This document shows positions 2 to 27,712 of a DNA stretch of 28,356 bases, in pieces. Within the stretch, counting starts at the first letter, position 1. The number at the start of each line of letters is the position of its first letter. The DNA is from a virus, in the IMG/VR virus record IMGVR_UViG_3300005563_000088, positions 1 through 28,356 of that record; one strand, written 5' to 3'. The position numbers and the translations under genes were made by a program. The notes beneath the pieces are model-generated. The model was not told the DNA's origin and did no database searches. It saw nothing but the letters and a program-made list of their open reading frames with translations.

Positions 2-151
2 ATGAGTGAGAAGAGCCGACATACATCCATCTCAGGTTATACTAAGGATACGGAAAAGTATAACCTTGCCGGCAGCTGCGGATGGCAGGTCAGGCGTTTC
101 ACGGCACTGAACTATAAAGATTTATTAACAGAGTTAAATAAGCATGTATGA
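2..151 (+). CDS. Small hypothetical protein (possibly truncated at the window edge)
   Basis: This 49-codon open frame begins with an ATG at the second base of the window and ends in TGA at 149-151. Its stop overlaps the ATG of the DUF1643 gene as ATGA, the coupling pattern used throughout this phage, which is the main reason to believe it is coding. The product is basic and polar, ends in ...LLTELNKHV and has no domain I recognise. The true start may lie upstream, outside the window, so treat it as a possible 3' fragment of a longer gene. Confidence 0.45.
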   Translation: MSEKSRHTSISGYTKDTEKYNLAGSCGWQVRRFTALNYKDLLTELNKHV

Positions 152-612
152 GACAGGGCGCCCAATTCACTGAGGACAGAAATTTTAGATATGCTCTCTG
201 GCGAATATGGAACGAGGATAAACCGCTGGTCATGTTCATCGGGCTAAACCCTTCTACGGCCAATGAATACAAAAACGACCCAACGATCCGTCGCGTCATG
301 CGCTATGCTGCAGATTGGGGATATGGAGGCGTTTACATGATGAACCTATTTGCCTGGGTGACACCCTATCCCAAGGAGCTGGGGAAAGCCCCGGATCCCG
401 TTGGAAATAATGATGCCTGGCTGACGAAAATACGACCCCTCTGCGACAAGGTCGTCTACGTCTGGGGCAGCTTCCCTGAAGCCACAGAACGCGCCGCCAA
501 GGTCCTCGAATTGATCCCTGGCGGTCATTGCCTGGGGAAGTCAAAGCTCGGTAATCCCTTGCATCCTCTTTATTTACCCATTGGACTTGAACCCATACTT
601 TTTCAGCCATGA
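148..612 (+). CDS. DUF1643 domain protein
   Basis: This 154-aa protein carries the DUF1643 signature: FIGLNPSTA at residues 30-38, NDPTIRR at 43-49, WGYGG at 57-61 and NLFAW at 66-70. The family is small, soluble and common in phages and mobile elements, and to my knowledge its biochemical function is unassigned. The length fits a complete member. The ATG at 148 overlaps the preceding stop as ATGA, and its own TGA overlaps the next ATG the same way, so it is probably translated as part of a coupled polycistron. The family call is strong; no function should be inferred beyond it. Confidence 0.9.
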   Translation: MRQGAQFTEDRNFRYALWRIWNEDKPLVMFIGLNPSTANEYKNDPTIRRVMRYAADWGYGGVYMMNLFAWVTPYPKELGKAPDPVGNNDAWLTKIRPLCDKVVYVWGSFPEATERAAKVLELIPGGHCLGKSKLGNPLHPLYLPIGLEPILFQP

Positions 613-4492: not shown

Positions 4493-4717
4493 TCAATATA
4501 ATACATTGAACTTGAATAAAAATCCTCCTATTTCAAGGGTGTCATTTCGAATGTCCTCTGAAAGTCTGGTATTTCGGATGAATTCGAGAAGGTTGTCATA
4601 GGCGGGTTTGGAGAGAATAAGTTCCTGCTCGCGCGGTGCTATCTGCCGGCGCAGCTGGCTGGTCAGGGCACCGAAGAGTTCTATTATGAGGCTGTAATAA
4701 TCGACAGGGCTTTTCAT
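4493..4717 (-). CDS. Hypothetical protein, 74 aa
   Basis: The frame is open further upstream, but I start at the ATG at 4717. The preceding gene stops one base before it, and a purine-rich stretch (AGAAAAAGAAA) precedes it. The 74-aa product is mostly helical: DYYSLIIELFGALTSQLRRQ, then REQELILSKPAYDNLLEFIRNT, ending in a short beta-like tail (IGGFLFKFNVLY). No family is recognised. It is the last gene of the leftward accessory operon that starts at 5973. Confidence 0.7.
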   Translation of the reverse strand: MKSPVDYYSLIIELFGALTSQLRRQIAPREQELILSKPAYDNLLEFIRNTRLSEDIRNDTLEIGGFLFKFNVLY

Positions 4718-4718
4718 A

Positions 4719-4898
4719 TTATTTCTTTTTCTGCCGGCTGAGCTTTCGACTGGCTTGTTTCGGCATGGAGGTGAGGTGATAATAGGAGCAGGTGTCACAG
4801 TAGTAGAAGGTCGTAACACCTGTCCTACGTTTCTTCAGGAGCCGGAGTGCCGCTTTGGCTTCCTTGCGGGTGCTGTAGCAGGCCTTTAGGCAGGCCAT
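4719..4898 (-). CDS. Small Zn-ribbon-like protein, 59 aa
   Basis: This 59-aa ORF starts with an ATG overlapping the RyR gene stop by one base (TAATG) and ends one base before the next ATG, so it fills the gap exactly. It is highly basic. The core YYCDTCSYYHLTS (residues 32-44) resembles the small phage and bacterial proteins with a YxCxxCxxxHLTS motif, which usually bind zinc through the CxxC pair and nearby Cys or His residues. C3, C7, C34, C37 and H41 are candidate ligands. Nucleic-acid or protein binding is likely; the target is unknown. Confidence 0.68.
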   Translation of the reverse strand: MACLKACYSTRKEAKAALRLLKKRRTGVTTFYYCDTCSYYHLTSMPKQASRKLSRQKKK

Positions 4899-5236
4899 TA
4901 TTTCAGCGCATCTACGATTCCCTGGAAAAGTTTGTCCTTCTTTTGCTGGAATTCGGGAAGTCCTTCAAAGGAAACCAGGCAGGGATGTGTCTTTTTATCC
5001 GCGTCCTTTACTTCTCCATATACCCAGCCATCGGCCAACTTATCCTTGCTCCATGCGTCGTGCTGAGCGGAAGCGGGAGCATCGGGGTTGTCTATACGGA
5101 AATTCACGCCCTTCACGGCGCTTTCTCTTTGCCAATCCGCGGCGTCACCCCATGACTTTTGAGAGAAGTCGCCGTTTACTTCACATAGAGCTTTATTGGC
5201 TTCGTGGCAGATAATTGCTATTTGTAATGTGTCCAT
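4898..5236 (-). CDS. RyR-domain protein
   Basis: This 112-aa protein has a clear RyR (ryanodine-receptor repeat) module. The HEANKALCE helix (residues 11-19) and QKSW are followed by QHDAWSKDKLADGWVYG (58-74) and DADKKTHPCLVSFEGLPE (78-95), matching the HxxWxxxKxxxGWxYGxxxDxxxKTHPCLVxxxxLP pattern. Phage and bacterial stand-alone RyR proteins are known only from sequence to my knowledge, and a small-ligand-binding role is an inference. I start at the ATG at 5236 because it directly precedes the family-like helix; the open frame to 5302 adds a residue run with no domain character. It couples to the Zn-ribbon-like gene by TAATG. Confidence 0.88.
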   Translation of the reverse strand: MDTLQIAIICHEANKALCEVNGDFSQKSWGDAADWQRESAVKGVNFRIDNPDAPASAQHDAWSKDKLADGWVYGEVKDADKKTHPCLVSFEGLPEFQQKKDKLFQGIVDALK

Positions 5237-5304
5237 CAGATTGATATTTATAATGTTATAATAGATACTTAAAGTAGGATAAAGTCGAATGGTATGGCGC
5301 AATC

Positions 5305-5550
5305 TTATGCGGTAGCAGCTTTAACAGCCCACATGGCCGCCTCTTCGTATGACGTTTGCGCCAACGAGGCTAACCGTCCGTCGTTTCCTTTCAGGCTTTC
5401 ACAGAGATTGATAAGCTCAGCGGTCTTTTGTTTGATCTGGTCGACAGTCCCGTTATTGCCGGGATTGAATGTGGTTCTGACTCTTGTTTCACCAACCGAT
5501 AGCGGCGGTTCTCCTGTGCTCTCATGAGCTGGATGTGTTTTGTTCTGCAT
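5305..5550 (-). CDS. Acb2-like protein (candidate cyclic-nucleotide sponge)
   Basis: This 81-aa protein has a disordered N-terminus of about 25 residues. A compact helical hairpin follows: TFNPGNNGTVDQIKQKTAEL (residues 27-46), NLCESLK and TSYEEAAMWAVKAATA (66-81). The closing EEAxMWAxKA helix and the preceding helix matching xVxxIKxxxAxLI recall the Acb2/Tad1-type hairpin family (DUF7681). Characterised members bind cyclic nucleotides and blunt CBASS or Thoeris immunity. The assignment is from motif memory and the binding residues have not been verified; many family members are untested. It overlaps the upstream gene by 29 nt within the leftward operon. Confidence 0.65.
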   Translation of the reverse strand: MQNKTHPAHESTGEPPLSVGETRVRTTFNPGNNGTVDQIKQKTAELINLCESLKGNDGRLASLAQTSYEEAAMWAVKAATA

Positions 5551-5758
5551 TATGATAATTGTTTGATGACGGTTTTATTGCTTGAAGGATATCTTGGGCT
5601 ATCACTGCATACCTATCCACTATGATCCCCCTGGTGAGGGGATTCTTGCGCGCATTCTTCGGCAGGTAAAGTAGCTGCTCGTGTGCCTTTAGGATGTTGA
5701 TGATATCTTGCTGGGTCAACGTTGCTTCCGGTTCAGCCCTACGCAGTACGTATGGCAT
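5522..5758 (-). CDS. Hypothetical protein, 78 aa (start uncertain)
   Basis: The helical product carries TQQDIINILKAHEQLLYLPK and DRYAVIAQDILQAIK and ends in a polar Ser/Asn tail. Two starts compete. The ATG at 5758 gives 78 aa but overlaps the upstream gene by 43 nt. A TTG at 5719 gives 65 aa, overlaps the upstream stop as TTGA, and has GGAAG 5 nt before it. The second is the coupling style of this phage, so the first 13 residues may not be translated. No family is recognised. The stop overlaps the Acb2-like gene start by 29 nt. Confidence 0.62.
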   Translation of the reverse strand: MPYVLRRAEPEATLTQQDIINILKAHEQLLYLPKNARKNPLTRGIIVDRYAVIAQDILQAIKPSSNNYHNAEQNTSSS

Positions 5759-5973
5759 TCACTAAAACGGCGCCAGCACGCTTCTTTGAGGGGTTCTGAA
5801 ACCACGACGGGTTCCGGCTGGTAGATCTGAATGGGGGCCTGCTCGATATCGACGGTCTTGTTATCTTCTGTATCTCTTCTCAGGACAGGCCGGGAGATGG
5901 CTTTGAGACGGACGACGTAAACGGTGTCGCCTTTGTTGTAGTCGAAGTGTTCGACAGTCTGTCCTAAAGCCAT
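5716..5973 (-). CDS. Hypothetical protein, 85 aa; first gene of the leftward operon
   Basis: This 85-aa protein starts at the ATG at 5973, 11 nt downstream of a candidate start region in the divergent promoter. Its N-terminal half is beta-rich (TVEHFDYNKGDTVYVVRL), suggesting a small SH3-like barrel. The middle is Pro/Gln-rich (QAPIQIYQPEPVVVSEP) and the end is basic. No family is recognised. As promoter-proximal gene it is probably the most strongly expressed of the accessory operon. Confidence 0.72.
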   Translation of the reverse strand: MALGQTVEHFDYNKGDTVYVVRLKAISRPVLRRDTEDNKTVDIEQAPIQIYQPEPVVVSEPLKEACWRRFSECHTYCVGLNRKQR

Positions 5974-5990
5974 TGGGGATTTATTTCAAA

Positions 5991-6021
5991 TAAAAATAGA
6001 GATAAAACTTGCAATTGCAAG
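5991..6021 (-). promoter_or_regulatory. Leftward promoter of the accessory operon
   Basis: On the minus strand CTTG (6021-6018) is followed by a 19-bp spacer and TATTTTTA (5998-5991). This fits the Bacteroidetes consensus TTTG-N19-TAnnTTTG except for one base at the end of each element. The first gene starts at 5973. Its -33 element is part of the 18-bp palindrome. Confidence 0.5.
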
Positions 6022-6023
6022 TT
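6006..6023. promoter_or_regulatory. Perfect 18-bp palindrome, candidate operator
   Basis: AACTTGCAATTGCAAGTT is perfectly self-complementary over 18 bp. It is centred in the 77-bp gap between the leftward operon (start 5973) and the rightward late operon (start 6051), and it covers the TTG of both candidate -33 elements. A dimeric repressor bound here would block both promoters at once. The protein could be the winged-helix or the ribbon-helix-helix product in this window, or one encoded elsewhere. Confidence 0.65.
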
Positions 6024-6037
6024 ATTTAGTAATTTAG
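6008..6037 (+). promoter_or_regulatory. Rightward promoter of the late operon
   Basis: CTTG at 6008-6011, an 18-bp spacer and TAATTTAG at 6030-6037 approximate the Bacteroidetes promoter TTTG-N19-TAnnTTTG, with one mismatch in each element. The GroES-like gene starts 13 nt after the -7 element, giving a short leader. The -33 element lies inside the palindrome. Confidence 0.45.
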
Positions 6038-6050
6038 GTTTCAAAATAAA

Positions 6051-6920
6051 ATGCTGCAGTCCCCCAAAGACAAAGTATTTGTAGAGATCACAAACAGATA
6101 CGAGGATGAGATTCAATTCCAAAGCGGCGTAAAGCTCTACATCGATCCCAGTTTCAATCCCAACTTCCATGCTACGTCAGTAGGAGTCGTTCACTCGGTT
6201 CCGGCCAGTTTAAGTGAAGACAATGCCGGTATTGAAGCGATCGTCCGGCCCGGGGACGAAGTTCTTTTCAGTTACAAGACGGTAGGGGATATCACTTACG
6301 AGGACAATACCTCGTCTTTCCGGATGACGACAAAGGGAGAAGGTTATCTCACGGAGTGGATGAATCAGGAAAGGGAGACGATCCGCCTGGAAAAAGGGAT
6401 GAAGGAAGGCCAGTGGGTGGTTATCTATACCGATAAGACCGGGGCACTGATCGATGGCCGGAAAGGGAGCCAGGGGTACTGTGAAAACTGGATCGCCCAG
6501 AACTTCAAGTTTGCCAGTGCCGAGGGGTTTGAATATGATAACCGGTTCTATTACGAAGGGAAGGAACTCTGGCAGGTGGATTACAGTTTCATCTTCGCCA
6601 TCCGCCGGAAGGGTCATTTGAGAATGGTCGGGGATTATTTGTTAATCGAACCCATTGTAGAGAACAGGCCCCTGCAGATCATGAATACTTCCCTGATCAG
6701 ACCCGAGAGCGAAAGGTACTGCGTGTTGGAGCATAAGGGCTGGTTACGGTGCGGAGGAAGAGGTAGAGAAGGATATCGGAATGGGGACGTGCTGATCTTT
6801 CATCCCGACCTGAAGGAAAAATACAATGTAGAGGGAAAGCCCATGTATATCGTTCGCAAGAAATTCCTACTAGGCAGGGAGGAGTCGGTCAATAGTATGG
6901 CTACCACTAGTTTAAATTGA
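6051..6920 (+). CDS. Protein with two GroES-like segments; first late gene
   Basis: The 289-aa product has two segments that each read like a GroES-type co-chaperonin fold. The first runs from about residue 6 to 77: KDKVFVEI, GVKLYID, VGVVHSVP, RPGDEVLFSY. The second runs from about 193 to 276: VGDYLLIEPI, CVLEHKG, RNGDVLIFHPDL, KPMYIVRKKFLLG. Both show a DxVxVE opening, a short mobile-loop-like stretch and a GDxVxF strand. Between them lies a unique region. A virion-assembly chaperone or structural role is plausible from its place at the head of the late operon. The similarity is my reading of motifs, and a beta-barrel structural protein is an alternative. Confidence 0.65.
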   Translation: MLQSPKDKVFVEITNRYEDEIQFQSGVKLYIDPSFNPNFHATSVGVVHSVPASLSEDNAGIEAIVRPGDEVLFSYKTVGDITYEDNTSSFRMTTKGEGYLTEWMNQERETIRLEKGMKEGQWVVIYTDKTGALIDGRKGSQGYCENWIAQNFKFASAEGFEYDNRFYYEGKELWQVDYSFIFAIRRKGHLRMVGDYLLIEPIVENRPLQIMNTSLIRPESERYCVLEHKGWLRCGGRGREGYRNGDVLIFHPDLKEKYNVEGKPMYIVRKKFLLGREESVNSMATTSLN

Positions 6921-14786: not shown

Positions 14787-15022
14787 GGTGGCTAGAAAAA
14801 TTCAAGCTTATCCTTGATAAAAACCCGGATATGTCAGATGCGGAATTATTCCGCGCCTTCCCTGAATTAAAAGGAGAACAGCGACTACTCACTTATGCAC
14901 TCCTGTACTGGCGTCATGGGATTATTGTGGATGAATTCAGGAAGGATTCTATTTGGTTACGATGTAAAAAGGCAATTATAGATGGCTTTAGACGATTCTA
15001 TTACGGAGTTAGAGCAGCCTGA
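14783..15022 (+). CDS. Small stand-alone FPEL-module protein, 79 aa
   Basis: Residues 14-29 read NPDMSDAELFRAFPEL, the same pattern as NPSASDDELLKKFPEL at residues 41-56 of the giant protein encoded next. Similar spacing follows to an Ala-rich Tyr-containing helix (TYALLYW versus DAAFSYL). The N-terminal FxxxLxxNPxxSDxELxxxFPEL unit looks like a small helical module that has been duplicated. The ORF starts at an ATGA overlap and overlaps the giant start by 41 nt. Its function is unknown; a partner or competitor for the same binding surface is one possibility. Confidence 0.7.
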   Translation: MRWLEKFKLILDKNPDMSDAELFRAFPELKGEQRLLTYALLYWRHGIIVDEFRKDSIWLRCKKAIIDGFRRFYYGVRAA

Positions 15023-18000
15023 AGTCGCTGATGAGCAGGTTGAAGGTCCTGGGCCAAAACCCAAGACCTGGATAGATAACTTTGAAGAGTACACTTCGAT
15101 GAACCCCTCCGCGTCCGATGATGAGTTACTAAAAAAATTCCCGGAGCTTGGCAAGGATACTAAGAGAATAGACGCGGCATTTTCGTATTTACATGCCCTT
15201 AAAAAGGGAATGTCGCCCGAGCAGGCGCAGAAGCTATTCCCTGACATCGTAGGCCCAACGGGGCCTTACATCGATCCTAAAAATAGAGTTCCAATACAAG
15301 GTAATCCGGATGTACTGGATATTCCAAAGATCAATACAGCTGAGTATGATAAGAAAGTTCAACAATATCCTGCTTCAGAAAGCACGGCCATGCCAGCTAT
15401 AAAAAATCAAATTCAAGCGCAGCAGCAGGCGGATGATAGGGAAAAGAAAATACAAGCAAAGTATCAACCCATGATGGATAGGGCCATGTCGGATATCAAC
15501 GCCAACAGAAGTCATTTTGTAGAAAACAAGCGGCCGGCGCTTGATTCTCATCCGGATGCCCCAGACAGCTATTATGAAGTGCCCAAAATGTCTATCATTG
15601 ATGACTATCTTAAAAAAACCGTGCCGGATGCTGACGACAGATATTACCTTCGGAACAGGATTATCAGCGAGTTCCACGCCCAAAAGGACGCCTATACCAC
15701 ACAGAAGATAGCCGATAAAAAGATAAACGAACTGCCAGCCGTGCAACAGGCCCGGCAGCATTTATATGGGACGAACATAGCGGCTCCCCAAGATATGAGC
15801 AAAGTCCTTGCCACCGCCAAGCAAATAGATCCTGATCTTAATAATAAGGTCAATAACATCTATCGGGAGGCCGTAAAGACAAATGAGGACATCAAAAATG
15901 AGTCTACCAGGACTTTGATGAATAATAGCACTTCGCTGGAATACGATGAGAATGGTACCCTTAAAAAGGTTAACCCCCTGAACGCGAACACGCCTTTCCA
16001 TGATCAAATAACCGGGGCGGCAAAGGGGTTGCAGGGGTTTTTTAAATTCAGCGGACAAACCGGGCAGATGGCCAGCGGCATCTTAAAATTCTTTGGTGCT
16101 AAAGAGTCTGGCTATGACCTTCAAAAGAACGCGGATGACTTTTTAGCCAAGAACACCTTTCCCGAAGGCAAACAGACTCCTACTGAATTTTTGGCGGGGG
16201 AAGCGTTGCCTATGGTATTGCAGGGTGAAGCTATGGGCCGCTTTGCCCGTATCGCCGGAGCCCCCGCATTCAAGGCGCTGTCCGGGGCGGCTGCCAGAGG
16301 AATTATCGGAAAGCTCGGAGAAGGCGCTTTGGGGGGTATAGCATTAGCGCCGATCAATAGTGCATTGATTTCCCACGATTATTATACGCAGTTGGTAAGA
16401 GCCGGAGAAACCCCCGAGATGGCGCATGCGAAGGCAGAGCACGTCTTTGACAAGAATTTGGTAACGGACATGGCGATCAGCCCCGTACAGTTCGGGATCA
16501 TGAACGCACCGGTCAATGGCGCCATTGCAAAAGTCCTTTTGAAATACGGGGTGCCCCCCGCCATTGCCGGGGGGCACTTTATGGCCCAGGATTACTTTCA
16601 GCAGAAAGAGAACAACCCGGCGCTGACGGCCTGGAAGTACGCCACCTCCGATGAAGGTCTGAAGACGGGCATCACCGGCGCTCTCACCGGTATTCTTCAG
16701 CATTACACCATCGGTAAGATGAATGACTGGCAGAATAACAAGAATGTGAAGGATGCCTTTTCGTTTGGCCGGAAGGATGTAACTGCCGATAACGCCGCCC
16801 TGCCCAATAATAACGTCATAGCCAATACTGTCCTGAATGCCTACGAGATGAAGGACGGACCCCGCCGGGCAGATGAATTGAAAGGTTTGGTGAATGAACT
16901 TCATGTGAAAGGAGTGTATAACGATGCCGAGGCGAAGCGCATAACCGGCATCATCGACGACGTAGCCGCTGTGAAGGGACAGGTCCCTAAAATGGGTACG
17001 TCCGCTCAGCGCATGGCGGTGTTCAATGAACTGCTGAACAAGCAGAATTACAAAAATCAGCTTCCGGCGGCCGGGGATCAATCCGTGGTGGATCTGCTGG
17101 AAGGCAAGATGAAGGAGTCTGACCAGCGGATACAGAAGATCATGAATGAGGAAGAGCCCTTGTACTTCATTAACGGCATCGAGACCAGTAAGGAGCAGCT
17201 GATGGATTTTGTCAAACAGCACCCGGAAGAGGCTCAATCCAAGGCTGTCAAGATCGATATCATTGGAGACGACGAAACCAAACAAGCTATACAGGATGCG
17301 AAGAACGAGTTTATGCAATCGGCCGCAGCGGAGCAAACAGGCGAGAATTCTTCGACAGATCAAACAGTTCAGCCAGAAGCTCAGACCAAAGTTACCGAAG
17401 TCCGGCACGCCATTACCCCCGAAGACGAGCGCGGAGTGACCAGCGGCCCCACGGATGTTAAGCTAAGCGAGGAAGGAAGGGACCAGGCAGATACACTGGC
17501 TGAATCTGTCAAAGCCAAAGGAGTAACCAAGGTTATAAGTTCAGGTCTACCAAGAGCAGCTGAAACCGGACAGATCGTAGCGGATAAATTGGGTGTTCCC
17601 CATGTTACCAAGCCGGAATTAAAGTCTTGGGACATTGGGGAATTCGACCAGACCAAGGATACTGACTTTAAGAAGGCGGAGAAGTACTTTGTGATGCATC
17701 CAGATGCCACTGAATTTGAAGGAAAGAAAATAGGGGAGTCGTTCAACCAATACAAGGACCGGGTTATAGGAGCCAGGGAGAAGATTGAGAACGAGGCTGG
17801 TGATCATACGCTGGTGGTAAATCATGGTGGCAATATCAACGTATGGGATGCCTACCAGAAAAATGGGAAGGCGTGGAATGAACAAACAGCCAAAGATTAC
17901 CTGAATAGCCAGGATGTTCCGCCCGCAGAGGTCAGAACCGGGCCGGAAGCTACTCCGTCTGAAGAAAGGCCCCTGCCTGGTCGGACGCCAGAGTTTTCAC

Positions 18001-21000
18001 AATTCTATAACAGATTTAAGGATGAAATACCGATGGTCAACGATAGTTCGTTAGATTACCGGTGGGATACTAAGATGGACCAAAAGACCCGGGAAGGAGC
18101 TATTAAAGACATTGAGAAAGGCAAAGAGAGCAAGCGGGCTAAGGATTTCTTGGACGAACTACAGCGGCAATATGACGCAGGAACCTTAGAATATACCCGT
18201 GGAAGAGGGAACCATGTAGAAAAATTTGGCATTCCTGTCGAAGAATGGAGTAAATTACATACTGAAGCGGAACGTTCTGTCGTTGAGGAGGCAGAATCCG
18301 GTTCTATATCTGATGACGACTACGCTGAATGGCTCAAAAAAGAATCTCAAAACTGGAAACCTCATGAATCAGGCATCGACTTCGAAACAGCAGGACAAAC
18401 TTCAGGAAACAGTGAAGCAGCAGCTGCCGAAAGTGAACATGTACAACCGGTTCGTGAAGTCGATGAAAGCCAAACCAGCAGTGGTAAGCGTTCTGGAAAA
18501 GATGAACCACGAACAACAACATCACGCGATGATGAGCCTTTACAACAGCCTCGTGGGAAGAAAGGCAATGAAACTCTTCAAGACACATCCGCCAAAGATG
18601 TAGAGGAGCAAGACCTTATGAAGGACCTGGCCGCCCGGCTGGGTAAGAAAATTTCAGATAAGATGGATCGCATGACAGTAGACGTACAGGGCAAAAATAT
18701 GCCTGTCGACGAATACCTGTCCAAGGCAAAGGCCGTGCTTTCCCAATTGTTCCCAGACCATACTATTCGCTCCTACAATTCGAAGAAAGAATATACGGAA
18801 GCTGAAAAACGGCCGGCGGGATCTGCTGGGGTATATGACGCGAACGGTAAGTACATCGCTTTCAATATGGAGGCTATTCAAAAGGCAGGGGCGGAAAATA
18901 CTATCTTCCATGAGGTTATCCATCCCATCGTACGAGAAGCATTGCAGGCCCGCCCGGGCGCTGTAGACAATGCCTATTCCAAACTAGTGGAATTGAAAGA
19001 CGTAAAGGGCATGGAGGCGGTCTGGGAACATGAGAATCATTATCGGGATCGTGGTTTGGATACGATGAAGGTAGAAGCCATTACTGAATTCCTTTCTCAT
19101 GTGGCGGACGGGAAGATTGATCCAGCAAACTTCACCACCTCCATACGTACCAAATTCGTTGATGTGGTGAACCGGATCTTCAAAGCCCTTGGCATAAAAC
19201 GGACCATTTCCACTGCGCAAGATATAAAGCGGCTGGCAGACTCCATCAAAACGGCCTTCGAAAAGGCAGACGCATCTGCTGTGAAGGAGGCTCTTGGTAA
19301 AAAGACGATCGGCGCTCCGGATGAAAAGTATGACGCCATGATCGGCCAGCCCAGCGGGGACCCGATGGAGGACTTCGTACGGGAGAAACTGGACGAAAGT
19401 AAAGAATCCTCTGTTAAGAAAGCGCTCATCGAAGTGGGGGGTATGGATGACGCCAAGGCTCAGGCTCTCATTGACAAGGTGCGGGCGGAGCGCACGGATA
19501 CCCCAGAAGAGATAATTCAAAAGGCCATGGCTATAGGACAGGCAAAGACAAAATCTGCTGCCAACCAAATCGCACCCAAGCAGGTAGCCGTCGGCATGAA
19601 GCCTAGTTTGGCCAAAACACTCCGCCGCTGGTATTTTGATGGCGTGGACGAGGTCAGCGACGTAAAAAGCATCATACGGAAGAATAAGGGCAAGGAAGAG
19701 TTTGAGATCGACAAAGTATACCATGCCACCCGCAAACTCGTTAGCGACTGGAATAAGGTGCCGAAGGCGAAACAGATGGCCTTCATATTGGGCATAGAAA
19801 AGCCCGAACTTTTGGCCAATCAGTCCCAGGAGATGAAAGACATTGCCGCCGGTTACCGGCAGCGGCTTGACAAGACCTTTGAAACGATCAAAAGCGTCAT
19901 GCCGGATCTCAATTTTATCGAGGACTACTTCCCGCATTTCTGGGAAAAACCAGAACAAGCCCGTAATTTCTTTGCCAGCACTCTGGCAAAGGCGCCGATG
20001 GAAGGGAGTAAAGGGTTCGCCAAAAAGCGGTTCTTTGAAACCATCGTATCGGGACTGAGTGAAGGATATAAATTATCCACCACCAACCCGGAAGAAATGG
20101 TGCGACTAGCAGAGGCCAATTCCTGGAAGTTTAAAACCGCGCACGATATTTTAAAGGATATGACGGCACAAGGATTTGTAAAGATGTTGCCGAGGGGGGA
20201 ACAGCCAGCTGGATGGAAGACAGTTGATGATCCAATATTTATGAATATGGCCATGAGGGCCAAATCGTATAAAACTGTTAAAAAGTTAGGAGAGGACTTA
20301 TTTGGCAATGATGTAAAAACCAAGCCTGAAACCAAAATGGCCGCCCTTTACATGCCTGAAGAAGTAGCAAAACTGATGAACGACTATCTGAGCAAGGGAC
20401 TGGGCGGGCCGGCCAAAACGGTCGTACAGCAATATAATAACATAAAGAACCTCTTCCAGCTAGGTGTAGGGTTCTTTCACTTTGGGACTACTACGACGGA
20501 TGCCATTGTTACCGGCATGACCAATGGAATACAGAAACTTTCCGCCGGCAATCCACGGGGACTTTTGGACCTAGCCACTTTTGGAAATCTGCCTGCCACT
20601 GTTATCCGAGGTTTTAAGGCCCGGGCCGACTGGAACGCCGGGAAGATCACCGCCGATACACAGGCGCTGATGGACGCCAACGCCAAGGTGGGCCGGCAAA
20701 AGATGTACTCTTTGGATGCGAAATACAACATGATGAAAGCCTTCGGGCAACTTCGGGCGGACGGGGATTTCAAGCACCTTCCTAAAGCAATCTGGAATGC
20801 TGTACTATACCTGCCAGAGTCCATCAACAAACCTTTGATGGAGCACTGGGTACCTTCTTTGAAAGTAGGGGGATATCTCCGCTCCTTGGATGCAGAGATA
20901 CAGAGCCGGAAAAACATGACCCCGGCCGAGCTTCAGACCGCCAAGCAAAAGATTTGGGACTCAATGGATGACAGGCTGGGCCAGGTAGTCTACGACAATA

Positions 21001-21995
21001 TTTTCGTAAGGAAGTCGTTGAAAGACCTCGCATTTATGGCCGTTCGCTCAGCGGGGTGGACAGGCGGTACTATCCGGGCAGTGTCCGGTGGGATTGCCGA
21101 ACTGCCCCGCAGCGGCCAGCGACTGGTAAGGGGGCAGGGCCTAAGTCAGCGTACTGCCTATTTGATCGGTCTGCCCTTGACGGTTGGGCTCATGGGCGCC
21201 TTCTATCAATATCTCATGACAGGTGAAGGCCCTCAGGAAACCAAAGATTACTTCTTTCCTAAGGATGGAACTAAGAGTCCTGACGGAACCGACCACCGGG
21301 TAGACTTTCCGTCTTACATGAAGGACATCCTATCTTATAGCAAGAGTCCTGTACAAACCCTGTTGCATAAGACCTCCCCCATTATCAACGACGTGGTAGA
21401 ACTCTATCAGAACAAAGATTTCTACGGCGAGAAGATCTACAACGGGGATGATCCGATATATCGGAAGGGATTGGATGTGCTGCAGCATGAGTTTGAAACA
21501 ATGGAGCCGTTCTCTTTCAGGAAGAATCCATACGACGAATCGCCTTTTATAAACCAGCTGACAACTCGCCCGGGCCTCGAACAGAAGTTCGGCATCATGC
21601 CTGCGCCAAAGGAAAGGGAGAGGAACGCTACGCAGAACATGATCATGAAAGCCTACGGTGATCAGATGAAGCATGAAGAGGAAGGTAAAACCCATGCTGA
21701 GATGGAGCAGGTGATCGCTCGTCGACATCTCCGGGAGTTTATTTTCAATGGAGGTGATTGGAAAGACGCATCTCAGGAATGGAAAGATAAGGCAGGGCTT
21801 AAACCCCAGTCCGTATCCAAGTTCATCAATGATTCAAAAATGGATCCTTATGAGCGCTACTACAAGCAACTGCATGCAGAAACAAAGATTAAATTATACC
21901 GGCAAATGAGCGATGAGGAAAAAGAAAAATACGGTAAATGGATACCCATAGCACTAAGAGAGAAGGCCAATCAACCTGAAACAACAGAAGAATGA
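14982..21995 (+). CDS. Giant polyvalent virion protein with histidine phosphatase and zincin domains, 2,337 aa
   Basis: The order of regions is as follows. An FPEL module lies at residues 34-85. A long helical region follows, with hydrophobic Gly/Ala-rich stretches around 350-465, and YFINGIETSKEQ near residue 730. The histidine phosphatase domain spans about 803-975: RH at 808-809, SGLPRAAETGQIVA, and the second His948 in VNHGGNINV. A low-complexity linker covers about 1120-1205. A zincin-type HEVIH (H1310, E1311, H1314) follows, with a downstream acidic helix EAITEF (1365-1370). The C-terminal half includes membrane-like YLIGLPLTVGLMGAFYQYL (2060-2078) and an LPD38-like end (VDFPSYMKDI, LLHKTSPI, NGDDPIYRKG). 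The pattern is of phage polyvalent proteins ejected with DNA. Catalytic residues look intact; substrates are unknown. Confidence 0.82.
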   Translation: MALDDSITELEQPEVADEQVEGPGPKPKTWIDNFEEYTSMNPSASDDELLKKFPELGKDTKRIDAAFSYLHALKKGMSPEQAQKLFPDIVGPTGPYIDPKNRVPIQGNPDVLDIPKINTAEYDKKVQQYPASESTAMPAIKNQIQAQQQADDREKKIQAKYQPMMDRAMSDINANRSHFVENKRPALDSHPDAPDSYYEVPKMSIIDDYLKKTVPDADDRYYLRNRIISEFHAQKDAYTTQKIADKKINELPAVQQARQHLYGTNIAAPQDMSKVLATAKQIDPDLNNKVNNIYREAVKTNEDIKNESTRTLMNNSTSLEYDENGTLKKVNPLNANTPFHDQITGAAKGLQGFFKFSGQTGQMASGILKFFGAKESGYDLQKNADDFLAKNTFPEGKQTPTEFLAGEALPMVLQGEAMGRFARIAGAPAFKALSGAAARGIIGKLGEGALGGIALAPINSALISHDYYTQLVRAGETPEMAHAKAEHVFDKNLVTDMAISPVQFGIMNAPVNGAIAKVLLKYGVPPAIAGGHFMAQDYFQQKENNPALTAWKYATSDEGLKTGITGALTGILQHYTIGKMNDWQNNKNVKDAFSFGRKDVTADNAALPNNNVIANTVLNAYEMKDGPRRADELKGLVNELHVKGVYNDAEAKRITGIIDDVAAVKGQVPKMGTSAQRMAVFNELLNKQNYKNQLPAAGDQSVVDLLEGKMKESDQRIQKIMNEEEPLYFINGIETSKEQLMDFVKQHPEEAQSKAVKIDIIGDDETKQAIQDAKNEFMQSAAAEQTGENSSTDQTVQPEAQTKVTEVRHAITPEDERGVTSGPTDVKLSEEGRDQADTLAESVKAKGVTKVISSGLPRAAETGQIVADKLGVPHVTKPELKSWDIGEFDQTKDTDFKKAEKYFVMHPDATEFEGKKIGESFNQYKDRVIGAREKIENEAGDHTLVVNHGGNINVWDAYQKNGKAWNEQTAKDYLNSQDVPPAEVRTGPEATPSEERPLPGRTPEFSQFYNRFKDEIPMVNDSSLDYRWDTKMDQKTREGAIKDIEKGKESKRAKDFLDELQRQYDAGTLEYTRGRGNHVEKFGIPVEEWSKLHTEAERSVVEEAESGSISDDDYAEWLKKESQNWKPHESGIDFETAGQTSGNSEAAAAESEHVQPVREVDESQTSSGKRSGKDEPRTTTSRDDEPLQQPRGKKGNETLQDTSAKDVEEQDLMKDLAARLGKKISDKMDRMTVDVQGKNMPVDEYLSKAKAVLSQLFPDHTIRSYNSKKEYTEAEKRPAGSAGVYDANGKYIAFNMEAIQKAGAENTIFHEVIHPIVREALQARPGAVDNAYSKLVELKDVKGMEAVWEHENHYRDRGLDTMKVEAITEFLSHVADGKIDPANFTTSIRTKFVDVVNRIFKALGIKRTISTAQDIKRLADSIKTAFEKADASAVKEALGKKTIGAPDEKYDAMIGQPSGDPMEDFVREKLDESKESSVKKALIEVGGMDDAKAQALIDKVRAERTDTPEEIIQKAMAIGQAKTKSAANQIAPKQVAVGMKPSLAKTLRRWYFDGVDEVSDVKSIIRKNKGKEEFEIDKVYHATRKLVSDWNKVPKAKQMAFILGIEKPELLANQSQEMKDIAAGYRQRLDKTFETIKSVMPDLNFIEDYFPHFWEKPEQARNFFASTLAKAPMEGSKGFAKKRFFETIVSGLSEGYKLSTTNPEEMVRLAEANSWKFKTAHDILKDMTAQGFVKMLPRGEQPAGWKTVDDPIFMNMAMRAKSYKTVKKLGEDLFGNDVKTKPETKMAALYMPEEVAKLMNDYLSKGLGGPAKTVVQQYNNIKNLFQLGVGFFHFGTTTTDAIVTGMTNGIQKLSAGNPRGLLDLATFGNLPATVIRGFKARADWNAGKITADTQALMDANAKVGRQKMYSLDAKYNMMKAFGQLRADGDFKHLPKAIWNAVLYLPESINKPLMEHWVPSLKVGGYLRSLDAEIQSRKNMTPAELQTAKQKIWDSMDDRLGQVVYDNIFVRKSLKDLAFMAVRSAGWTGGTIRAVSGGIAELPRSGQRLVRGQGLSQRTAYLIGLPLTVGLMGAFYQYLMTGEGPQETKDYFFPKDGTKSPDGTDHRVDFPSYMKDILSYSKSPVQTLLHKTSPIINDVVELYQNKDFYGEKIYNGDDPIYRKGLDVLQHEFETMEPFSFRKNPYDESPFINQLTTRPGLEQKFGIMPAPKERERNATQNMIMKAYGDQMKHEEEGKTHAEMEQVIARRHLREFIFNGGDWKDASQEWKDKAGLKPQSVSKFINDSKMDPYERYYKQLHAETKIKLYRQMSDEEKEKYGKWIPIALREKANQPETTEE
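16551..16577 (+). other. Perfect GC-rich hairpin inside the giant gene
   Basis: GTGCCCCCCG (16551-16560) and CGGGGGGCAC (16568-16577) are exact inverted copies around a 7-nt loop (CCATTGC), followed by TTT. The encoded peptide is the ordinary GVPPAIAGGH. Such a stem in RNA would be very stable and could pause the ribosome or polymerase; it lacks a U-run long enough for a standard terminator. Confidence 0.5.
18364..18603 (+). CDS. Possible overprinted ORF within the giant gene linker, 79 aa
   Basis: In the +1 frame relative to the giant, an ATG at 18364, preceded by GGAAA, opens 79 sense codons. The product looks globular and helical: KLQETVKQQLPKVNMYNRFV, then AKPAVVSVLEKMNHEQQHHA and MMSLYNSLVGRKAMKLFK. 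Its codon choice looks more like neighbouring genes than that of the giant frame, which here encodes a Ser/Glu/Gly-rich linker. Either a real nested gene or a segment whose frame was shifted by compensating indels would explain it; chance is also possible. Confidence 0.35.
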   Translation: MNQASTSKQQDKLQETVKQQLPKVNMYNRFVKSMKAKPAVVSVLEKMNHEQQHHAMMSLYNSLVGRKAMKLFKTHPPKM

Positions 21996-26995: not shown

Positions 26996-27419
26996 CCTGC
27001 TCTTTCAAATAAGTCATCAACTGGGCGTTCGTCATTGACGCCCTTTCTTTATCTGGAGACCAGCGATTGCAGCAGGCGTTCTTGTTGATCTCGCCTGGAT
27101 CGTCCCCAGTGGATTCCTTGTCCACTTTTTTACAATCTCCCGAAAGGATAAATTCATCACATCGCTTGCAGGAGAAGCCAGCTTCGTTCTCCACGTACCC
27201 CGCCTCCGTCTTTGTCGTGGCACCGATAATAGGCATACTCACCTGTTTGAATCGCTCCACCCACAGGCCGCAGCCTCCGTAGGCCTTTACCTGGTTATCG
27301 CTCTCATTGAATATAAGGCAGACTCCCCTTGAACGACGGAAAAATATACAATCCGAGCAGGTATATTGCGTACCTGCTCGGTGAATATATAGGACCGTCT
27401 CTTTGGCTATTTTACTCAT
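26913..27419 (-). CDS. Cysteine-rich protein with two HiPIP-like Cys clusters, 168 aa
   Basis: Two similar cysteine units are visible. The first is YTCSDCIFFRRSRGVC with a later GGCGLW, and the second FSCKRCDEFILSGDC with NACCNRW. Each has a CxxC pair, a third cysteine 8-10 residues later and a fourth before a Trp/aromatic residue. That layout resembles small phage proteins annotated as HiPIP-like or zinc-binding; I cannot tell which metal is bound. The C-terminal part (residues 128-168) is charged and disordered, and lies antisense to the portal 3' end. The ATG overlaps the GroES-like stop as ATGA. Confidence 0.72.
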   Translation of the reverse strand: MSKIAKETVLYIHRAGTQYTCSDCIFFRRSRGVCLIFNESDNQVKAYGGCGLWVERFKQVSMPIIGATTKTEAGYVENEAGFSCKRCDEFILSGDCKKVDKESTGDDPGEINKNACCNRWSPDKERASMTNAQLMTYLKEQANPAKKQEPAADRKELVEDLQPGAGAL

Positions 27420-27712
27420 AAATTCTCTTTGTCACGGGCAGGTCGCTCTATGCCCTTTATAATGGTTTCAGAGATAAACCTATACTTTGTGCCATTGATC
27501 TCCTGTAGGACACCTGTACTCTCGGGAAACAGAATCCTGTCTCCTTCTTTCATGGTCAGCACCTTTTTAGATACTCGCATTACGGTTGCCCATTGTAGAT
27601 TATCTGTCTTGGCGCCGTCTACTATTATCATACCCCCTTCCGTTTTTTCTTTCTTTGGGTCGGGCTTAATGATCACTTCTGTATTCAGTGGTTCTATGTC
27701 AATAGTACTCAT
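27416..27712 (-). CDS. GroES-like co-chaperonin, 98 aa
   Basis: The layout is that of GroES: an opening strand NTEVIIKPD (10-18), a mobile-loop-like KKEKTEGGMIIVDGAK (20-35) with hydrophobic MII where GroES has IVL, then ATVMRVSKK and GDRILFPE (57-64), and a closing EINGTKYRFISETII. Length matches GroES. Phage co-chaperonins replace host GroES to fold the capsid protein; that role is an inference. It is coupled by ATGA at both ends. No GroEL-like gene is in the window, so it would act with host GroEL. Confidence 0.85.
   Translation of the reverse strand: MSTIDIEPLNTEVIIKPDPKKEKTEGGMIIVDGAKTDNLQWATVMRVSKKVLTMKEGDRILFPESTGVLQEINGTKYRFISETIIKGIERPARDKENL

Follow-up and report, generated by a model that had tools for sequence, protein, structure and literature searches.

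A leftward operon in an IMG/VR virus record encodes, in neighboring genes, a RyR (R12) domain protein of the RyDEP family and an Acb2/Tad1 hairpin protein, as judged from profile matches, sequence alignments, and a predicted structure. Pairing of these two domains, as adjacent genes or as single fused polypeptides, recurs across viral and bacterial-genome loci and is not due to chance. The operon is best read as a compact counter-defense cassette of two signal sponges (rough probability, 0.64), which would act on Thoeris cADPR isomers and on CBASS/CRISPR cyclic oligonucleotides.

The window analyzed was the whole 28,356-bp record, which is possibly a genome fragment. Protein similarities indicate that the host of the phage is likely a member of the Bacteroidota, since the portal protein is related, distantly (~23% identity), to portals of Flavobacterium and Cellulophaga phages and the best bacterial-genome relatives of the RyR protein include sequences from Runella, Spirosoma, Telluribacter, and Arcicella. 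Six small leftward open reading frames (ORFs), each starting with ATG, were found at positions 4493 to 5973, in agreement with the preliminary description of this DNA. The features of the operon and of the adjoining intergenic region were as follows.

5716-5973, minus strand: 85-aa ORF, first of the leftward operon; ORF only, no Pfam match.
5522-5758, minus strand: 78-aa ORF overlapping both neighbors; ORF only, without a Pfam or PHROG match.
5305-5550, minus strand: 81-aa Acb2/Tad1 hairpin protein, candidate minimal sponge of the Acb2-like type (PF24729, predicted structure, and family alignment).
4898-5236, minus strand: 112-aa RyR (R12) domain protein, candidate cADPR sponge of the RyDEP family (PF02026 and conserved RyDEP residues).
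4719-4898, minus strand: 59-aa basic protein that weakly resembles a Zn ribbon and has a single CxxC (YYCDTCSYYHLTS; weak PHROG matches, ~1e-3).
4493-4717, minus strand: 74-aa ORF only; neither Pfam nor PHROG gave a match.
5974-6050: AT-rich divergent intergenic region (77 bp, 22% GC) separating the leftward operon from the rightward structural genes.
6006-6023: perfect 18-bp palindrome AACTTGCAATTGCAAGTT within the divergent intergenic region, a putative operator.

Four of the five ORF junctions overlap or abut, the exception being the 81-aa and 112-aa genes, which lie 68 bp apart. A single promoter shared by the six ORFs is plausible, and a further promoter could lie inside the 68-bp gap; a sigma-70 scan, the coverage of which does not extend to Bacteroidota promoters, returned no minus-strand site at the operon. 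The palindrome was the longest perfect one in the window, with ~0.1 expected per window at this length or above. The Zn-ribbon-like label given earlier to the 59-aa product is weak, the protein having one CxxC, a nearby His, and the weak PHROG matches. A conserved six-gene cassette is not supported, since none of the fetched loci held a relative of any of the remaining four ORFs of the operon.

Elsewhere in the window, a 2,337-aa structural-region protein (14982-21995, plus strand) contained, at residues 807 to 954, a histidine phosphatase domain (PF00300, 1.5e-28), which is unusual within a giant phage structural-region polypeptide. A GroES-like Cpn10 protein (PF00166, 3.3e-12) was encoded at 27416-27712 on the minus strand, and the 289-aa product of the first gene of the rightward operon (6051-6920, plus strand) had a weak GroES PHROG match (1.9e-9). 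A DUF1643 gene (PF07799, 5.7e-39) was present at the left end of the record (148-612, plus strand).

The 81-aa product matched the Acb2_Tad1_hairpin profile (PF24729) over residues 29 to 80 with an E value of 1.3e-13 and 51.4 bits (cut-off, 27), and the positive controls T4 Vs.4 and PaMx41 Acb2 (PaMx41 gp24 with X at the stop) scored 7e-20 and 4e-16, respectively. Recruitment in IMG/VR yielded 80 close relatives; their consensus reads GExRVRxxFNPS...VDxIKxxxAELIxxCE...RLAxLAQTxYEEAAMWAVKAATA, and residues G20, K40, A44, A64, M73, and K77 were invariant across the 75-sequence alignment (A3) of the hairpin family. AlphaFold modeling from the single sequence was poor (pLDDT, 62), and the 75-row alignment was used instead, giving a model (pLDDT, 90.8) with a short helix at residues 19 to 23 and long helices at residues 34 to 52 and 58 to 80. 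This predicted arrangement is the layout of the Acb2 protomer, which consists of a short N-terminal helix followed by two long antiparallel helices (PMC12043709). The Acb2/Tad1-type hairpin proposed in the preliminary description was borne out by both the profile match and the Acb2-like model, and the product ends in EEAAMWAVKAATA as described there.

Comparison of the model with structures in the PDB recovered cGAMP-bound T4 Vs.4 (7uq2; Z score, 5.9; 2.2 Å over 53 residues), which, at 26%, had the highest sequence identity of the structures listed and ranked fifth among unrelated helical hairpins. The structural match is consistent with Acb2, but it is not decisive because two-helix hairpins resemble many folds. 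A plain Foldseek search of the hairpin against the PDB, for which a two-helix hairpin is an uninformative query, returned nothing significant; the 81-aa sequence alone, searched against PDB sequences, gave no relevant match, and the family profile reached T4 Vs.4 with E values of only 0.37 and 0.092.

Acb2 is hexameric and binds cyclic di- and trinucleotides. The window protein shares with Acb2 (PaMx41 gp24 and T4 Vs.4) a PF24729 score above the cut-off, the predicted protomer of a short helix plus hairpin, and an aligned lysine, K40, which corresponds to K23 of T4 Vs.4 and to Acb2 K26, the latter presumably the basic residue of the pocket. It differs from Acb2 in its subfamily, which is distinct and highly conserved (GExRVRxxFNPS...EEAAMWAVKAATA) and has a shorter loop, and in its dinucleotide pocket, where the tyrosine is replaced or shifted. 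The counterpart of T4 Y8 is F28 in Pfam coordinates but lies one residue away in the MAFFT alignment. In T4 Vs.4, Y8 is the aromatic residue of the dinucleotide pocket, and Y8A abolishes function (PMC12657218). Tad1, an anti-Thoeris and anti-CBASS sponge, shares the C-terminal hairpin fold family with the window protein. Membership of the 81-aa protein in Tad1 itself was rejected: residues 1 to 18 of the model were coil with zero strands, and the N-terminal antiparallel beta-sheet domain of Tad1, which contributes the gcADPR pocket, was absent from it.

The clear RyR module of the preliminary description was recovered in the 112-aa product, which matched PF02026 with an E value of 2.9e-12 and 47.1 bits (cut-off, 27.4) and also matched solved RyR domains in the PDB (animal RyR repeats). 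The Thoeris signals 2'cADPR and 3'cADPR are either broken down or bound by phage R12 proteins, which a preprint of May 2026 (PMC13232231) describes under the name RyDEP. RyDEP itself, mycobacteriophage DyoEdafos gp78, is described there as hydrolyzing both isomers, most of the tested homologues as binding without cleaving (two of them at nanomolar affinity), and RyDEP and the sponge homologues as blocking Thoeris in vivo. The same preprint reports that two of the eight tested homologues did not bind cADPR and that RyDEP alone cleaved it despite high conservation, so that membership in the family does not fix function. Residues H75, W78, H100, and D117 were confirmed in the RyDEP sequence, and the aligned window residues, H59, W62, H84, and D101, were invariant in an alignment of 12 relatives (A1).

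These four residues do not distinguish a sponge from an enzyme. The 112-aa protein was 54% identical to Ruegeria phage V12 gp55 and 30% identical to RyDEP; the sponge homologue H4 of the preprint (PMC13232231) originates from a Ruegeria phage, and V12 gp55 is probably H4 or a near twin. Since overall similarity is closer to the Ruegeria phage homologue than to RyDEP, the 112-aa protein is more likely to be of the sponge type than of the glycosidase type. It shares with the RyDEP family the R12 domain, the same four ligand residues, and the form of a small stand-alone phage protein. In contrast, the RyDEP gene lies inside a NARP1 NAD-salvage operon, whereas the window RyR gene lies beside the Acb2-like hairpin gene, and no NARP1 genes were recognized beside it among the ORFs examined.

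The association between the two domains was assessed across 84 viral and 82 bacterial-genome RyR ORFs, de-duplicated at 90%, the flanks of which were scanned for hairpin domains. In the viral loci, 7 of 12 hairpins lay ≤600 bp from the RyR gene, with 12% expected (P = 1.3e-4), as did 4 of 5 hairpins in the bacterial-genome loci (P = 8e-4), and the RyR gene and the flanking hairpin gene shared a strand in 17 of 17 cases. Most of the near pairs scored above the Pfam cut-offs, with L117, L126, and L133 being recognized by custom HMMs or subthreshold Pfam scores. Recruitment of neutral controls through the terminase, HAD-like, and recombinase genes of the window yielded only 1, 7, and 4 loci, respectively; this was too few, and enrichment was therefore judged by position within loci rather than against control contigs. 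Fifty contigs (2.17 Mb) carrying a second subfamily, hairpin B (NPYPxSYxP tail), contained four RyR domains above the cut-off, all four fused or adjacent to a hairpin; the chance of this was ~6e-7, a guide only, as the 50 contigs were chosen from 80 and included the known linked ones. Among 50 hairpin-A contigs, RyR was found in 5, directly adjacent in two, and the other 45 had no detectable RyR.

When all neighbors of RyR genes were clustered, the hairpin stood out as the accessory family found repeatedly in unrelated lineages. Gene order varied, with the hairpin gene first in the window and in L092 and the RyR gene first in L044 and L072. Linked cases were scattered over a poorly resolved RyR tree, on which the 20 linked rows required 17 state changes, a count that unresolved forks inflate; because of these changes, the linkage appears to have been gained or lost many times. 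Recurring beside RyR in 11 loci, several of them from one lineage, was also an ~83-aa family (MREELGQELVEVAVPSPKDEYRPSDKEALREYEVRIRFLSRGC...; L127:5660-5923 and ten others) with no Pfam match.

Single ORFs containing both RyR and hairpin domains were found in at least seven metagenomic contigs (L124 [identical to L179], L126, L133, L150/L156, L180, L185, and L234) and in the cultured Sulfitobacter phage phiCB2047-B. Both domains exceeded the Pfam cut-offs in L124, L156, L234, L180, and phiCB2047-B, and the fusions drew on two different hairpin subfamilies. The phiCB2047-B protein (AGH07415.1, SUFG_00048; L339:2471-3037) has RyR at residues ~11 to 116 and the hairpin at ~132 to 184; like the window pair, it combines RyR with an Acb2/Tad1 hairpin that has an FNPS-type loop, but it does so in one 188-aa polypeptide, annotated "hypothetical protein," rather than in two genes. 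A separate 182-residue open frame (L139:6662-7207), ~0.7 kb from a RyR gene, had a C-terminal PF24729 hairpin and an N-terminal region without a known fold, and it may represent a Tad1-like or new two-domain sponge.

The preliminary description had also raised the question of co-occurrence of RyR and hairpin genes and suggested a linked ligand-handling module; the former was found beyond chance in both sets of loci and in the fusions, and the latter is supported by the domain matches, adjacency, and fusions and was made concrete because RyR proteins act on Thoeris cADPR signals, as stated in the preprint (PMC13232231). From the observed domain identities, R12 residues, Acb2-like predicted architecture, and adjacency or fusion, we infer joint expression, sequestration over cleavage, and the ligands. 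Both products would be made early and together from one operon. The 112-aa RyR protein would capture 2'cADPR and 3'cADPR produced by Thoeris TIR proteins, and the 81-aa hairpin, as a minimal Acb2-like sponge, would capture cyclic di- and/or trinucleotides of CBASS and possibly also cA3 of type III CRISPR. Effectors of Thoeris or CBASS would then stay off, and the phage would be covered against both classes of signal; some other phages carry both domains in one polypeptide. The steps that appear weakest are the ligand of the 81-aa hairpin subfamily and the choice between sponge and glycosidase for the RyR protein.

The main rival to two separate sponges is a mutual complex, in which both products form one physical unit (a hetero-oligomer or a fusion) acting on one ligand or pathway, for example as a Tad1-like anti-Thoeris factor. 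Fusion of the domains in at least eight distinct phages, the frequent short spacing, and the inclusion of gcADPR-binding Tad1 in the hairpin family (PMC12043709) are in line with such a unit, but hairpins are common without RyR and RyR also occurs without a hairpin, gene order varies, two different hairpin subfamilies are fused, and the window hairpin has no Tad1 beta-sheet domain; we consider this rival unlikely. Somewhat less likely still is a RyR protein of the RyDEP glycosidase type, which would cleave cADPR isomers, beside a hairpin that acts as an independent sponge. The catalytic dyad of RyDEP, H75/D117, is indeed kept as H59/D101, but in the preprint (PMC13232231) eight other homologues, though highly conserved, did not cleave, and both the closer similarity to the Ruegeria phage homologue (54% versus 30% to RyDEP) and the lack of recognized NARP1 genes among the ORFs examined argue against cleavage.

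The two genes might also be incidental accessory neighbors, with one or both proteins having a nonimmune (virion, regulatory, or metabolic) role, given that shuffling brings small accessory genes of phages together in the same early operons and that some RyR genes lie within structural gene clusters. Against this reading stand the position-specific clustering, the shared strand, the repeated fusion in loci of the Bacteroidota, Bacillota, and Pseudomonadota, and the recurrence of the hairpin family beside RyR in unrelated lineages; it is improbable, the least credible of the readings weighed here.

Both the Acb2/Tad1 hairpins and the RyR anti-Thoeris proteins of phages have been described already, and the window pair adds new members to both. 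Full-text literature searches, the reach of which may leave such a description in other papers, turned up no paper that connects RyR to Acb2 and no account of a recurrent pairing or fusion. Acb2, Tad1, and the hairpin are unmentioned in the main text of the preprint (PMC13232231), from which its supplement might differ; the "R12-like domains" purified there indicate that its authors may be aware of multidomain homologues. It is an even proposition that RyR (RyDEP-type) and Acb2/Tad1-hairpin domains, adjacent or fused, constitute a recurrent bispecific module against immunity, unnamed until now, that neutralizes signals derived from ADP-ribose together with cyclic-oligonucleotide signals and so defeats Thoeris and CBASS/CRISPR.

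Phage sponges have so far been known one family at a time. If the module is real, phages would package inhibitors of two immune-signal chemistries as one unit, and ready test proteins are named here, among them the 188-aa phiCB2047-B protein. The module would further predict immune-nucleotide binding for particular uncharacterized hairpin subfamilies and point to the host guard systems (Panoptes, for example) that those subfamilies might trip. The recurrent pairing and fusion of RyR and hairpin domains, the apparently new aspect of this analysis, suggests broad-spectrum silencing of bacterial immunity by phages.
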